Below are positions 5,088 through 27,535 of a stretch of 64,000 nt of DNA, piece by piece. Positions within the stretch are counted from its first letter, which is position 1. Every line of letters starts with the position of its first letter. The position numbers and the translations under genes were made by a program. This DNA is from Pseudacidovorax sp. NFM-22 (GTDB taxonomy: Bacteria > Pseudomonadota > Gammaproteobacteria > Burkholderiales > Burkholderiaceae_C): contig NZ_JACBFY010000001.1 of NCBI RefSeq assembly GCF_021401245.1, positions 310,001 to 374,000 on the forward strand, written 5' to 3'. The notes under the pieces were generated by a model, which ran no database searches, was not told where the DNA came from, and saw only the letters and a program-made list of their open reading frames with translations.

Positions 5088-5967
5088 AGACACCGCTCTG
5101 ACGGTGATGGCGCTGGTGCACGAAGCCGAGCAGCGCCTCGCCCAGTCCGGCGTCGCCTTCGGCCACGGCACCACCAACGCCTTCGACGAGGCCGCCTGGC
5201 TGGTGCTGTGGCGCCTGCGCCTGCCGCTGGACCAGCTGGACGAGAACGCCGACCGCGCCGTCGCGCCCGGCGCCGCGGCGCAGGTGCGCGCGCTGGTGGA
5301 AGAGCGCATCGCCACCCGCAAGCCCGCCGCCTATCTCACCAAGGAGGCCTGGCTGCAGGGCGTGGACTTCTACGTGGACGAGCGCGCCATCGTGCCGCGC
5401 AGCTTCATCGCCGAACTGCTGGCCGACGCCAGCATCGACAACTGGCTGGGCGAGCACACGCAGCGCGTGCTGGACCTGTGCACCGGCAACGGCAGCCTGG
5501 CCGTGCTGGCCGCCATGGCCTGGCCGGAGGTGCAGGTGGATGCAGCCGACATCTCGCCCGAGGCGCTGGAGGTGGCGGCCATCAACGTCGCACGCCACCA
5601 GCTCGATGCCCGTGTGCGCCTGCTGCAGTCCGACGGCCTGGCCGGCGTCGACGGCGTGTACGACCTCATCCTGTGCAACCCGCCCTACGTCAACGCCGCT
5701 AGCATGGCCGCGCTGCCGCAGGAATACCGCGCCGAGCCCGAACTGGCCCTGGCCGGCGGCAGCGACGGCATGGACTTCGTGCGCCAACTGCTCGCCGACG
5801 CTCCCGCCCGCATGAGCCCCCAGGCCGTGCTGGTGCTGGAGATCGGCAACGAGCGGCCTTTCTTCGAGGCCGCCTTTCCCCACCTCGAGGCCGTCTGGCT
5901 CTCGACCAGCGCCGGCGACGACCAGGTGCTGCTGCTGACCCGCGACGCCCTCGTCGCCCATCCATGA
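5080..5967 (+). CDS. prmB: Ribosomal protein L3 N5-glutamine methyltransferase PrmB
   Basis: 295-residue class I SAM-dependent methyltransferase that methylates a glutamine side chain on ribosomal protein L3. The SAM-binding motif [13 protein letters not shown] and the signature NPPY ([10 protein letters not shown]) are present. The N-terminal helical domain and the [19 protein letters not shown] stretch mark PrmB rather than PrmC, which acts on release factors. The ATG at 5080 gives MSEDTALTV and overlaps the dapE stop by 8 nt. Upstream in-frame sequence is a shadow of dapE. The gene overlaps the next one by ATGA. Confidence 0.9.
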
Positions 5968-8033
5968 TCATCCTGAACAACGTCGTTTTGCGCCGCGGCA
6001 CCAAGGTGCTGCTCGACAGCGCGAGCGTCACCCTCAATCCCGGCGAGAAGGTCGGCCTGGTCGGCCGCAACGGCGCCGGCAAGTCCACCCTGTTCGCCCT
6101 GCTCAACGGCACCCTGCACGAGGACGGCGGCGACTTCAGCATCCCGAAGCAGTGGCGCATGGCCCAGGTGGCCCAGCACATGCCCGAGACCGAGGACTCG
6201 GCCACCGACTTCGTGGTGGCCGGCGACACCCGCCTGGCCGAGGCCCGCGAGGCGCTGGCCAAGGCCGAGGCCCTGCACGCCGCCGACCCCGACGATGCCG
6301 ACGCCGGCATGGCGCTGGGCCAGGCCTACAGCGACATCGCCGACGCCGGCGAGCACGACGCCGTGCCGCGCGCGCAGGCCCTCATCATGGGCCTGGGCTT
6401 CAAGCTGCACGAGCTGGACCGCCCGGTCAACAGCTTCTCGGGCGGCTGGCGCATGCGCCTGCAGCTGGCCCGCGCGCTGATGTGCCCCAGCGACCTGCTG
6501 CTGCTGGACGAGCCCACCAACCACCTGGACCTGGATGCCCTGGTCTGGCTCGAAGCCTGGCTGCAGAAGTACGACGGCACCATGCTCGTCATCAGCCACG
6601 ACCGCGAGTTCCTGGACGCCGTGACCAACGTCACCGTGCACATCGAGCAGGCCAAGCTGACGCGCTACGGCGGCAACTACAGCAAGTTCGAGGACATGCG
6701 CGCGCTGCGCATGGAGCAGCAGCAGATCGCCCACGAGCGCCAGCAGGAAAAGATCGCCCACCTGCAGAAGTTCATCGACCGCTTCAAGGCCAAGGCCAGC
6801 AAGGCCAAGCAGGCGCAAAGCCGCGTCAAGGCCCTGGCCCGCATGGAGCGCGTCGCGCCGCTGCTGGCCGAGGCCGAATTCACCTTCAGCTTCAAGGAGC
6901 CGGCCAACCTGCCCAACCCGATGCTCAGCATCACGGGGGCGAGCTTCGGCTACATGCAGGAAGACGGCAGCGCCACCACCATCCTGTCTGGCGTGAGCCG
7001 CGGCGTGCTGGCCGGCCAGCGCATCGGCATCCTGGGCGCCAACGGCCAGGGCAAGTCCACCTTCGTGAAGACGGTAGCGCACGACCTGCCGCTGGTCTCG
7101 GGCACCGTGACCGAGGGCAAGGGCCTGGCCATCGGCTACTTCGCCCAGCAGGAGCTGGACGTGCTGCACGAGACCAGCAACCCGCTGGAGCACATGGTGC
7201 GTCTGGCGCGCGAGTTGGGCTCGGCCGCGCCGGCCGCCCGCACCGAGCAGGACCTGCGCGGCTTCCTGGGCAGCTTCAACTTCAGCGGCGACATGGTCAA
7301 GCAGCCGGTGGGCACCATGAGCGGCGGCGAGAAGGCACGCCTGGTGCTGGCCATGATGGTCTGGCAGCGCCCCAACCTGCTGCTGCTGGACGAGCCGACC
7401 AACCACCTGGACCTGGCGACGCGCGAGGCCCTGGCGATGGCGCTGAACGAGTTCGAGGGCACGCTGATGCTGGTGAGCCACGATCGCGCCCTGCTGCGCA
7501 CGGTCTGCGACGAGTTCTGGCTGGTGGGCCGCGGCGAGGTGCGCGACTTCGACGGGGACCTGGACGACTACCAGCGCTACCTGCTGGACGAGTCCAAGCG
7601 GCTGCGCGAAGAGGCCAAGCAGGCGAATGCGGCGGAGGTGGCGGCGGCATCCGCGGCAGCGTCCTCGCCTCCCAAGGCGGTGGTGCCGCAGGCATCCGCC
7701 CCCGCTCCGGCCGTAACCGCTTCTCCTGCCACCGTATCGACATCGGCGGCACCCGCCGTGGACGGCCGCACGCAGCGCCAGAACGACGCCCGCGAGCGCC
7801 AGCGCCTGGCCGAGCAGAGTCGTCCGCTGCGAAAGGAACTGGCCAGCCTCGACCAGCGCATGGCCCAGGCCAACGCCGAGAAGAGCGCACTGGAAGCGCG
7901 CCTTGCCAGCCCCCTGCCGCCGGCGGAGATCGCGGAAGCCGGCAAGCGCCTCAAGCAGCTCGGCGACGAGATCGAGGCGATGGAAGAGCGCTGGCTAGAG
8001 CTGTCGGAGGCGCTGGAAGGCATTGGCTCCTGA
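5964..8033 (+). CDS. yheS: ABC-F ATPase, YheS type
   Basis: 689-residue soluble protein with two ABC ATPase domains and no membrane segments, the arrangement of ABC-F translation factors that act on ribosomes. First Walker A is GRNGAGKST (about residue 35), first signature FSGGWRMRLQ, Walker B LLLLDEPTNHLDLDALVW. The charged inter-domain linker with KAKQAQSRVKAL is typical. Second Walker A is GANGQGKST and second signature MSGGEKARLV. A 45-residue Ala/Pro linker leads to a C-terminal coiled coil. The N-terminus ([18 protein letters not shown]) and the linker match YheS better than Uup or EttA. The start ATG overlaps the prmB stop. Confidence 0.88.
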   Translation: MIILNNVVLRRGTKVLLDSASVTLNPGEKVGLVGRNGAGKSTLFALLNGTLHEDGGDFSIPKQWRMAQVAQHMPETEDSATDFVVAGDTRLAEAREALAKAEALHAADPDDADAGMALGQAYSDIADAGEHDAVPRAQALIMGLGFKLHELDRPVNSFSGGWRMRLQLARALMCPSDLLLLDEPTNHLDLDALVWLEAWLQKYDGTMLVISHDREFLDAVTNVTVHIEQAKLTRYGGNYSKFEDMRALRMEQQQIAHERQQEKIAHLQKFIDRFKAKASKAKQAQSRVKALARMERVAPLLAEAEFTFSFKEPANLPNPMLSITGASFGYMQEDGSATTILSGVSRGVLAGQRIGILGANGQGKSTFVKTVAHDLPLVSGTVTEGKGLAIGYFAQQELDVLHETSNPLEHMVRLARELGSAAPAARTEQDLRGFLGSFNFSGDMVKQPVGTMSGGEKARLVLAMMVWQRPNLLLLDEPTNHLDLATREALAMALNEFEGTLMLVSHDRALLRTVCDEFWLVGRGEVRDFDGDLDDYQRYLLDESKRLREEAKQANAAEVAAASAAASSPPKAVVPQASAPAPAVTASPATVSTSAAPAVDGRTQRQNDARERQRLAEQSRPLRKELASLDQRMAQANAEKSALEARLASPLPPAEIAEAGKRLKQLGDEIEAMEERWLELSEALEGIGS

Positions 8034-8159
8034 GCTCAGGTGCGCGCAAAAGGGGGCGCCGATCGTCGATGACCCGGTAGCGCGGGCTGATCGAGCGTTG
8101 GGGCGGATGACACCCTGTGTGATGCGTCTGCTCGATTCGGGACGCTGGACGCTCCGCCA

Positions 8160-8390
8160 GCCCCGGCCCGCCCGGCCGCCTCGCCCACAGGCTGCGCCGC
8201 TCGCTGAACGCTCGCGGAACCTGCGGTGCTCGCCGGATGAGCGCGCGGCGTAACTCGCTACGCGCTTCGCGCTGCGCTCAAACAAACGCCGCGAGTCAGT
8301 CACGACCGGCGCGCGGGGGCCGCGGGCCTCGCTCATCCGGCTGCGCGCCTCGGCGCATCCTGAGGGCAAGTCGGCCGGGCGGGCCGGGGC
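8160..8390 (-). repeat. Structured repeat R3, copy A (possible structured RNA)
   Basis: A 231-nt element closed by a perfect 19-bp inverted repeat (8160-8178 with 8372-8390). Nested inside are a 12-bp stem (8232-8243 with 8330-8341), an 8-bp stem (8244-8251 with 8286-8293) and a side hairpin (8308-8316 with 8320-8328, one mismatch). Conserved single-strand blocks shared with copy B, read on the minus strand, are GCCGAGGCGCGCAG, GGCGAGCACCGCAG and CGAGCGTTCAGCGA. The stems differ in sequence from copy B but still pair. I do not recognise a named RNA or element family. Confidence 0.75.
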
Positions 8391-8618
8391 CGGCTCCAGG
8401 GTGATCGGGCGTGGTACTCGCCTTTGGCGTGTCTTTCCAAACGCCGGACCGTTGGGCGGCCGCCGGCCGACTGACACACTCCCGCCCTTCTCTCCCGCAG
8501 CGCGCCGCCGCTCAGATCACCCATCAGCCATTCGGGCTGAAGACAACCCCGGCCAGTCACCCGCCAACCGTTCAGGCTGGAGACAGCGCAGGTCAGCTCG
8601 CCCCAACAGCCGTTCAGG

Positions 8619-8713
8619 CTGAGCTTGTCGAAGCCAGGGCACGTGGGGATCAACGCCCTTCGACAAGCTCAGGGCGAACGGGTTGATGGACTCAGGGCGA
8701 ACGGGTTGATGGA
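8619..8713. repeat. REP-like palindrome (family R2) with a tandem 23-nt duplication
   Basis: CTGAGCTTGTCGAAG at 8619-8633 is mirrored perfectly by CTTCGACAAGCTCAG at 8658-8672, the classic paired arrangement of this dispersed palindrome. A 23-nt unit starting CTCAGGGCGAACGG is then duplicated head to tail (8668-8690 and 8691-8713). Weaker CCGTTCAGGCTGG-like copies lie at about 8565-8620. The same core sequence is repeated inside the kinase gene near 44 kb. Confidence 0.8.
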
Positions 8714-8804
8714 CTCACCGACTGGGCAAGCGTGCTGATTGGGTAGGCATGCGGAAGGGCCCCTTGGAGCCTGACCAAGGCCAACACCCGCCGATCACCC
8801 CCAA

Positions 8805-9045
8805 GCCCGGCGGGAGCGGCCCCCAGGGCGCGGCCGTTGGGCGTGCCGAGGCGCGCAGCCTGGCGAGTGAGGTGCGCGAGCATCGCGCACCGGCCGTAAC
8901 TGACTCGTGGCGCTTGTCCGAGCGGAGCGCGTCAGCGCGCAGCGAGTTGCGCCACGCACTCGCCAGGCGAGCACCGCAGGGGACCCCGAGCGTTCAGCGA
9001 GGGGCACGCACATCGGCCGCGCCCTGGGGGCCGCTCCCGCCGGGC
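8805..9045 (+). repeat. Structured repeat R3, copy B (possible structured RNA)
   Basis: Second copy of the element, in opposite orientation to copy A. It is closed by a perfect 32-bp inverted repeat (8805-8836 with 9014-9045). Internal stems are 12 bp (8858-8869 with 8957-8968) and 8 bp (8906-8913 with 8949-8956), plus a perfect 8-bp side hairpin (8871-8878 with 8884-8891). The 12-bp and 8-bp stems lie directly side by side, as in copy A. Shared unpaired blocks are at 8845-8858, 8966-8979 and 8987-9000. The 8034-9201 gap holds no convincing gene beyond these repeats. Confidence 0.75.
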
Positions 9046-9201
9046 GCCCGCGCGGAGACAACGGTCCGAAGACCCCGCATGCGACCACAGCGCCGGCTTC
9101 GCCCTTGCCTCGCCTTGCCATCGGCAGCGGTTGGCCTCAAGCGCCGAACTGTCGGCGCGGCCATGCCTGGCAACGTGACGCAAATCCCGCCTTCCGAAGA
9201 C

Positions 9202-10176
9202 TTAAACGTCCAGCACCAGCCGCTTCCCCGTGCAGCGCGAGACGCAGATCATCATGGTCTTGCCCGACTGCCGCTCGATCTTGGTGAGGATGCCGTCCTG
9301 GTGGTCCAGCTCGCCGTCGAAGTCGAGCACGGGCGTCTCGCAGGCGCCGCACACGCCTTCCTTGCAGCTGTGGTCGGGGTTCAGCCCGGCGTCGATCAGC
9401 GCGTCCAGGATGGACTTGCCACCCGGCACCGGCACCGTCTTGCCGCTCTTCTCGCAGACCACCTCGAAGCCGTGCGTCTCCACCGGCGACTCGACCACCA
9501 CGGCGGCGAAGCGCTCGATGTGGGCGTTGGCGTAGCCCAGCTGCTCGCAGGCCTTTTCGAAGGCATCGAGCATGGGCGTGGGGCCGCAGCAGTAGAAGTG
9601 GCTGTCGGCGCCGCGGCCTTCCAGCAGTTGGGCCAGCTTGGGCGGGCCGCCTTGCTCGTCGTCGAAGTGCCAGGTCACGGGCACCTTGGCCTCGGCGGCC
9701 AGGGCGGTGATGGGCTCGACGAAGGCGGCTTCCTTGCGGGTGCGGGCGCAATACACCAGCTCCACCGGCCGGCCCAGGGCCACCAGGCGCTGCAGCATGC
9801 AGAAGATCGGCGTCACGCCGATGCCGCCAGCCACCAGCACGCTCCTGGGCGCGTCCTCGTGCAGTTCGAAGTTGTTGCGCGGGGCCGAGATGTCGATCAC
9901 CTGCCCCACGCGCAACTGCTGATGCACGAACTTCGAGCCGCCACGGCTGTTGCGGTCGTTGAGCACGCCCACCACGTAGCGGCCGCTGTCGCTGCAGGGA
10001 TTGCACAGCGAATAGCTGCGCACCAGGCCGTTGGCGAGGTGCAGGTCGATGTGCGAGCCCGCGGCGAAGGCGGGAAAGCTCACGCCGGCCGTGGCCGGGC
10101 GGAATTCGACGCTGACGATGCCATCGGCCTCGTGGCGCATCGTGTGGACCAGGGCTTTGAGCGTGGGGGCGGACAT
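9202..10176 (-). CDS. Flavin/2Fe-2S oxygenase reductase (phthalate-reductase type)
   Basis: 324-residue class IA-type reductase that passes electrons from NAD(P)H through flavin and a plant-type 2Fe-2S centre to a Rieske oxygenase. The N-terminal flavin-binding barrel includes RSYSLCNP, the nucleotide-binding part includes VAGGIGVTPI and CCGPTPML, and the C-terminal ferredoxin domain has CKEGVCGAC with a further Cys downstream. The start at 10176 (MSAPTLKALV) fits the usual N-terminus. It is the last gene of the minus-strand cluster, 149 nt after the oxygenase gene, so the two are very likely partners. Confidence 0.9.
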   Translation of the reverse strand: MSAPTLKALVHTMRHEADGIVSVEFRPATAGVSFPAFAAGSHIDLHLANGLVRSYSLCNPCSDSGRYVVGVLNDRNSRGGSKFVHQQLRVGQVIDISAPRNNFELHEDAPRSVLVAGGIGVTPIFCMLQRLVALGRPVELVYCARTRKEAAFVEPITALAAEAKVPVTWHFDDEQGGPPKLAQLLEGRGADSHFYCCGPTPMLDAFEKACEQLGYANAHIERFAAVVVESPVETHGFEVVCEKSGKTVPVPGGKSILDALIDAGLNPDHSCKEGVCGACETPVLDFDGELDHQDGILTKIERQSGKTMMICVSRCTGKRLVLDV

Positions 10177-27498: not shown

Positions 27499-27535
27499 GC
27501 TCGGAGGCTCGGAGGCTCGGAGGCTCGGAGGCTCG
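27499..27535. repeat. Tandem 8-nt repeat
   Basis: GCTCGGAG is repeated four times and then partly a fifth time, perfectly, in the gap between the TAXI and response-regulator genes. Exact short tandems of this kind slip during replication. The rest of the 321-nt gap (27443-27763) holds only an AT-rich patch at 27640-27675, a plausible promoter zone for the next gene, with no gene recognised. Confidence 0.8.

Follow-up and report, generated by a model that had tools for sequence, protein, structure and literature searches.

Two genes converging with their 3' ends, coding for an ABC-type ATPase and an oxidoreductase, flank two copies of a structured repeat in the analyzed window (the whole stretch of 64,000 nucleotides, C11:310001-374000 of a 6.4-Mb Pseudacidovorax genome labelled G000): unit A on the minus strand and unit B on the plus strand (Table 1). 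Three 14-nt blocks of B recur identically in A, as stated in the original prediction; their description as unpaired does not hold for 8845-8858 and 8966-8979, which partly pair with each other. The columns joining these two blocks (6-147, 7-146, 9-144, and 10-143) contain standard pairs in 99.5% of the cells of an alignment of 46 units, and column pair 7-146 covaries without exception (GC 23, AT 19, CG 4). The inner stems differ in sequence between both copies and still pair, in agreement with the prediction: for the 12-bp stem, A has GCCGGATGAGCG and B has GCCTGGCGAGTG; for the 8-bp stem, A has CGCGGCGT/ACGCCGCG and B has CGTGGCGC/GCGCCACG. The arms of the outer stems are 89% (A) and 95% (B) complementary. 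What had been overlooked is that the two units behave like the ends of a single composite element.

The spacer carries a REP-like inverted repeat (CCGTTCAGGCTGAGCTTGTCGAAG / CTTCGACAAGCTCAGGGCGAACGG, within 8602-8713), and at 8668-8713 a 23-nt unit (CTCAGGGCGAACGGGTTGATGGA) is perfectly duplicated in tandem. Many other places in G000 and in the congeneric genome G177 were among the matches listed for the REP-like repeat, which was also found in seven Sphingobium plasmid records; it is thus shared well beyond this family.

Table 1. Features of the A/B locus (window positions; A and B denote the two units).
Feature	Position	Strand	Remarks
ABC-type ATPase gene	5964-8033		PF00005, PF12848
Composite element (A minus, spacer, B plus)	8143-9067	.	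bounds are edges of similarity to G000:C16:108571-109394, not mapped ends
Unit A	8156-8394	-	core 8221-8354; outer stem arms 8156-8199 / 8351-8394
Third conserved block, A	8201-8214	-	side hairpin after b3
Block b3, A	8221-8234	-	partly paired with b5
P2 stem, A, 3' arm in unit orientation	8232-8243	-	partner 8330-8341; covaries
P4 stem, A	8286-8293 and 8244-8251	-
Core motif CTGACTC...GC..TTGT..GAGC, A	8276-8299	-	C11:318276-318299
Block b5, A	8341-8354	-	partly paired with b3
Spacer	8395-8804	.	REP-like inverted repeat 8610-8633 / 8658-8681
Unit B	8805-9045	+	core 8845-8979; outer stem arms 8805-8847 / 9003-9045
Block b5, B	8845-8858	+	partly paired with b3
P2 stem, B, 5' arm	8858-8869	+	partner 8957-8968; covaries
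Core motif, B	8900-8923	+	C11:318900-318923
P4 stem, B, 5' arm	8906-8913	+	partner 8949-8956
Block b3, B	8966-8979	+	partly paired with b5
Third conserved block, B	8987-9000	+	side hairpin after b3
Oxidoreductase gene	9202-10176		NAD-binding and Fer2 domains; PF00175, PF00111

Covariation and spread of the folded repeat

Folding energies corresponded to z-scores of -10.1 for B and -8.1 for A, with none of 200 shuffles being equally stable. When a single unit is folded by minimum free energy, its core pairs otherwise than in the covarying fold, and single-sequence folding was not used for the structural plan. The tested plan consists of b5 (partly paired with b3), P2 (about 12 bp), the side hairpin P3, CTGACT, P4 (8 bp), TTGTYYGAGC, the hairpin P5, GCGAGTT, and subsequently the return strands. 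Units were gathered by core motif into alignment A1. Filtering required seven or more of the eight P4 pairs together with a GAGTT-like neighbour, as well as similar b5 and b3 blocks: from 183 units, 160 passed the P4/length filter, 126 the block filter, and 46 were left after removal of near-duplicates.

Within these 46 non-redundant units, which are not independent where they stem from one genome, 96.5% of 1,555 pair cells are paired, and in 25 of 34 pairs both partners have changed. Compensatory cells amount to 345 compared with 96.8 (sd 8.7) in 500 shuffles, and sliding one side of the stems drops the pairing to 25-50%. Motif invariance in A1 is given by construction, and its P4 pairing figure is inflated because the rows were pre-filtered for P4 pairing, making these two the weakest part of the covariation evidence; P2, P3, and the b5-b3 pairs were under no selection for pairing, and the core motif does vary among copies found by the model. 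A second alignment (A2), comprising 16 units from other bacterial families picked by hand from model hits, showed 66 compensatory cells compared with 16.9 in shuffles and a pairing of 94.4% compared with 27-47% when slid; TGT, GAG, and CGAGTT vary little or not at all in A2 as well. Hence, the stems keep the fold through many paired base changes. The original claim of a selected structure had been drawn from two copies, which is insufficient as proof, and is borne out by the 46; neither copies losing the stems nor stems failing to covary, the outcomes named as speaking against it, occurred.

The core pattern GACTCRYSGCRKTTGTYYGAGC has 23 exact sites in the own genome and its reversed control none; BLAST, too, shows many copies there. 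Searching Burkholderiales genomes with a covariance model, as proposed with the original prediction, recovered both window copies plus a wide family. The model built from A1 (R1) gave 26 matches in the own genome. In the window alone, it scored B with 115.4 bits (E 4e-23) and A with 109.5 bits (E 7.6e-22), followed by a third match of 13 bits (E 0.55). It matched 173 out of 299 sampled genomes of the own family, covering 89 of 141 genera, and 37 out of 200 genomes of the order, the weaker matches representing a shorter form; strict filters and the few candidates scored render the per-genome counts of these multi-genome searches lower bounds. An independent model derived from A2 alone (R2) finds B with 50 bits (E 9e-9) and A with 32.7 bits (E 4.5e-5).

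A looser core pattern was present in 27 of the 299 same-family genomes (18 of 141 genera; control matches zero in any row) and in at least 114 stretches of the named collection. Acidovorax, Diaphorobacter, Rubrivivax, Pseudacidovorax, Pseudorhodoferax, Simplicispira, Rhodoferax, Ideonella, Ramlibacter, Hydrogenophaga, Methylibium, Variovorax, Ottowia, Comamonas, and Rivibacter, among others, are the genera listed; Ruania and Saccharopolyspora are also among the matches listed and may be chance. Thereby, A and B belong to one large, diverse, and widespread Burkholderiales family of folded repeats. Downstream of many relatives' units (L054-L082 and order-level loci), a hairpin (ACTTTCTTTTGGCG..GCAAAAGAAAGT) is followed by CCGGG...CCCGG. 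This hairpin is part of a larger composite in the relatives, and none was seen beside the window copies.

The class had not been recognized in the original prediction, and comparison with Rfam 15 likewise gave no match in the window at the curated threshold, while relaxed thresholds returned only chance-level matches far below the gathering score of each family. The family was not found in the open-licence literature searched and is apparently without a name so far. It may or may not be identical with the Burkholderiales-1 motif (Weinberg 2010, PMC2864571), a candidate from this order with doubtful RNA status and without Rfam accession in the table, which is mentioned by no other paper of the literature searched. 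Viral contigs, phages, and plasmids were rejected as carriers: none of the viral contigs contains the exact pattern; a composite of genome G283 matched two of 72,556 plasmid records (Comamonas and Variovorax) and none of 50,697 phage records; a composite of G368 matched one plasmid record over a stretch of 52 nt only.

Outward-facing pairs, their sites, and enclosed genes

All 53 pairs counted in nine genomes face outward. Within G000, 20 of the 26 R1 matches form 10 outward pairs, and four of the other six are located at contig ends. The 26 matches in G283 are completely accounted for by 13 pairs, whose composites end in matching inverted repeats. Eight pairs and five singles were found in G164, six pairs and two singles in G091, and one pair and nine singles in G015, in which 9 out of 11 units are unpaired. 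Twenty loci in four genomes of one other bacterial family (G368, G449, G411, and G322) comprise 15 pairs and five singles. The exception is Pseudorhodoferax (G175 and G069), where neighbouring units approximately 410 nt apart face inward; the genes beside these clustered units are ordinary ones (contractile injection system, ABC transporter, CoxE-like), with no transposase among the ten proteins scanned. End types, ends, and palindromes were judged by eye. By this approach, the outer stems could be sorted into types alpha, beta, and gamma, each with its own internal loops; pairs in G000, G164, and G091 usually combine alpha with beta, while the window pair is gamma-gamma.

Four contigs of the own assembly terminate inside a copy or no more than ~400 nt away from one, so element copies explain assembly breaks. 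Tandem arrays of 5-8-nt units (at least four copies) were observed near 10 of the 26 own loci, representing six distinct sites (L206, L207, L208, L213, L216, and L229); the window itself has one array, at 27499. Slippage at folded ends is possibly the origin of the arrays near copies.

Comparison of sites revealed that window positions 8143-8430 and 8553-9067 are 94-95% identical to G000:C16:108571-109394, with an indel between both stretches. The flanks of this C16 composite are unrelated to those in the window, and the composite is orthologous to G177:C2. In G177, 12 kb separate the genes flanking the window pair; across the 13.4 kb that include these genes, BLAST finds no unit and R1/R2 give chance-level matches only. 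Furthermore, G283 carries 13 similar composites at 13 sites, and two composites of G368 are 98.5% identical over 471 nt. For 8 of the 10 own pairs, the flanking sequences were located in G177, G071, and G255. At these eight sites, G177 bears a pair at five, one unit at two, and an internal deletion at one; the deletion concerns C1, whereas a core has been lost at C3. At C3:125586, the facing stop codons are 15 nt apart in G071 and G255, and G000 has ~970 nt more. Neither R1 nor R2 detected a unit at the six G071/G255 loci corresponding to C3:125586, C14:1110486, and C14:889437; at a further site, both genomes do bear pairs (L385 and L386). Thus, whole pairs recur at unrelated sites and are present or absent at orthologous sites. 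Loss could likewise account for a missing pair at an orthologous site, given the internal deletion and the lost core in G177. No clean target-site duplication was seen by eye in this comparison of species-level genomes, the search for a parent transposon gave none, and at some element ends the similarity declines gradually.

At C14:1110486 and C14:889437, the sister species G071 and G255 harbor unrelated large palindromes in the same gap. These palindromes (L380, L381, L375, and L376) are of the CGAAGG... or GCAGAGG... type and may reflect either replacement of one palindrome by another or a shared insertion preference. One contig of G449 joins the flanks of two element sites at a unit (L401 with L411 and L412), and the elements may be rearrangement points.

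In some relatives, a fraction of the pairs encloses small genes of foreign appearance. In the four genomes of the other family, 5 of 15 pairs enclose 811-1161 nt with a GC content of 0.42-0.46 compared with 0.57-0.60 in the flanks; the remaining ten spacers span 105-248 nt. Six enclosed ORFs were scanned, yielding one 8xMP domain, no family above the cut-off for the others, and no PADLOC match for any of the six. At one orthologous site, the spacer of 124 nt in G368 corresponds to an insert of 1,129 nt in G322, and a low-GC ORF of its own lies immediately outside the pair in G368. Close to one end, three of the five inserts (L397, L404, and L405) share a stretch of approximately 30 nt (AATGTACCGGAGTCGAATTGTTTTGACTAT or variants of it) and look as if derived from one cassette system. 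Where units are widely spaced in G219, G020, and G071, the genes in between (LysR regulator, FemAB/GNAT-like, AMP-binding, and ABC proteins) were discarded as candidates, being maybe host genes and not cargo.

Functional strand, folded molecule, and interpretation

A functional duplex would give equal numbers of G·T and A·C mismatches. The observed counts are unequal in P4 (34 G·T vs 3 A·C in 182 of 183 units scored), in all core stems (29 vs 7, with 4 of the 7 at one column pair), and in the outer stems (54 vs 21, p 1.8e-4; by unit 27 vs 4 of 46). Consequently, it is the CTGACTC strand that folds, and each unit has this one functional strand. The frame of the original prediction, RNA or single-strand DNA, was therefore right, and the asymmetry cannot tell the two apart, G·T being tolerated in RNA and DNA alike.

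The apical loops are more informative in this respect. Among 107 apical hairpins of the 46 units, 42 carry GNA triloops, 39 of them closed by C-G, and neither GNRA nor UNCG loops occur. Single-base shuffles give an expectation of 1.0 GNA loop per set, and the whole window contains 7 of 599. Many P3 loops scored as 8-nt read CCGAAGGA, corresponding to a GNA turn plus one bulged A. Very short DNA hairpins of this type have exceptional stability, and their RNA counterpart is much weaker. For DNA, an "extraordinarily stable hairpin" with a 2-bp stem and a Tm of 76.5 °C is listed in PMC10527192, which cites work on d(GCGAAGC). In the part of PMC2864571 dealing with the STAXI motif, UUCG loops served as an argument for RNA, the same logic reversed. 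The junctions CGAG/CGCAG and GA/GA moreover suggest sheared G·A pairs. The loop repertoire favours folded single-stranded DNA over RNA, an argument depending on loop types, with GNA triloops occurring in RNA too.

On balance, we consider it probable, by a modest degree of confidence, that A and B are the inverted ends of one ~0.9-kb non-autonomous mobile DNA element of MITE/REPIN-like character, whose ends act as folded single-stranded DNA. Each end consists of a core of ~135 nt inside a long variable outer stem. We infer a fold in single-stranded DNA from the C(GNA)G minihairpins formed by the loops and from junctions resembling sheared-G·A modules; it would be needed during strand separation at replication or upon cruciform extrusion. 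An enzyme encoded elsewhere would recognize the folded core at both ends (TTGT, GAGC, GAGTT, and the b5/b3 blocks) and move everything in between, sometimes including passenger genes, with insertion presumably tolerated in gaps downstream of genes. We propose that, with nothing but the shape and the junction letters being read, stem sequences are free to drift as long as they continue to pair.

In terms of known systems, the family resembles REPINs/BIMEs with RAYTs (Bertels and Rainey 2011, PMC3116915) in being extragenic and multi-copy, in inverted palindromic ends that apparently multiply together, and in compensatory stem changes. It differs by an end built from a multi-helix core of 135 nt within a long outer stem instead of a 20-40-nt hairpin, by often two unlike end types per pair, by occasionally enclosed ORFs, and by lacking both RAYT association and the GTAG tag. 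In the 65 nt upstream of the units, which are several times longer than a 20-40-nt palindrome, GTAG was found in 1 and CGTC in 9 of 46 cases. With MITEs it shares short, non-autonomous, inverted-end copies in large number at polymorphic sites, with no own gene in ordinary copies; unlike in MITEs, each end folds on itself to a conserved plan, beyond matching the other end. In IS200/IS605 elements, the transposase recognizes an imperfect single-stranded DNA hairpin at either end, these hairpins being small and on the same strand, whereas the A/B ends are inverted, ~200 nt long, and without PF01797 association. Integron attC sites are read by structure as a single strand, with freely varying stems and conserved bulges, flank small orphan genes, and contain the core sites R'' (RYYYAAC) and R' (GTTRRRY). 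Freely varying stems with conserved bulges and small orphan genes are likewise found in the A/B family, in inverted instead of direct order, and RYYYAAC...GTTRRRY in that order was absent from all 46 units on either strand. Judged by RAYT, GTAG, and attC alike, the A/B family is outside these classes; by analogy, it may work like a REPIN or MITE with integron-like, structure-read ends.

Several other explanations have to be weighed against a mobile element with single-stranded DNA ends. The strong covariation and the strand asymmetry are what would be expected of a functional RNA, and a T-rich tract following the outer stem in several relatives would suit a terminator. A structured non-coding RNA, i.e., a ~200-nt sense-strand transcript or a role in the 3' UTR with genomic multiplication being secondary, appears unlikely to us, though, considering the lack of an Rfam family, the zero GNRA and UNCG loops, and the recurrence of inverted pairs as units. 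Unit orientation relative to same-direction flanking genes is also neutral (36 vs 28, p 0.38, with a hexamer gene caller; 29 vs 30 with a caller using GC by codon position), which speaks against a cis-acting RNA. The hexamer-caller context counts cover 107 of 158 non-own units, 38 having an unknown neighbour and 13 lying inside a called gene. Avoidance of divergent gene gaps depends on the caller, both being home-made: the hexamer caller places 4 of 107 units in such gaps compared with 38 of 227 in the background (p 6e-4), and the cruder GC-by-codon-position caller 13 of 111 compared with 37 of 208 (p 0.20).

The position of the window pair between two converging gene ends, the different large palindromes of the sister species at two orthologous sites, and the lack of an associated transposase (Y1, PF01797 tested) fit BIME-like host palindromes, acting as bidirectional 3'-end/insulator or nucleoid sites and spread by homologous recombination and gene conversion without dedicated transposition; the joined flanks in G449 are as recombination would produce them. 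Double-stranded protein sites leave the one-strand selection unexplained, and the patchiness (173/299), the lineage-specific amplification, and the enclosed low-GC ORFs look selfish, so that we rate this explanation as rather improbable. Strongly disfavoured, with hardly any likelihood left to it, is a REPIN mobilized by a resident RAYT (Y1, PF01797). The inverted doublet, the hairpin with compensatory changes, and the extragenic location are as in REPINs (PMC3116915), and the own genome has one PF01797 match; this match lies ~29 kb from the nearest unit, 43 of the 173 unit-bearing genomes, including G091 (one contig), are without PF01797, and the GTAG tag is virtually missing. Co-occurrence (both 130, unit only 43, PF only 92, neither 34; Fisher p 0.69) led us to reject a Y1/RAYT link as far as PF01797 can show one.

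As an extension of the preferred mobile-element reading, the family could constitute a new class of Burkholderiales mobile DNA with inverted, often unlike, covarying single-stranded DNA ends (GNA minihairpins and G·A modules), a folded-ssDNA recombinase acting in trans, and small orphan genes carried between the ends like an integron cassette whose ends are inverted; this broader proposal is tentative and in our view doubtful. The structure is borne by over half of the genomes sampled from a large bacterial family, yet it matches no Rfam family. If the single-stranded DNA reading is true, nature would offer numerous variants of one large folded DNA, in which conserved letters indicate where a protein is expected to bind, and the search for the binding protein would become direct. 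If ends and passengers move as cassettes, this would be a further route for orphan genes into chromosomes.
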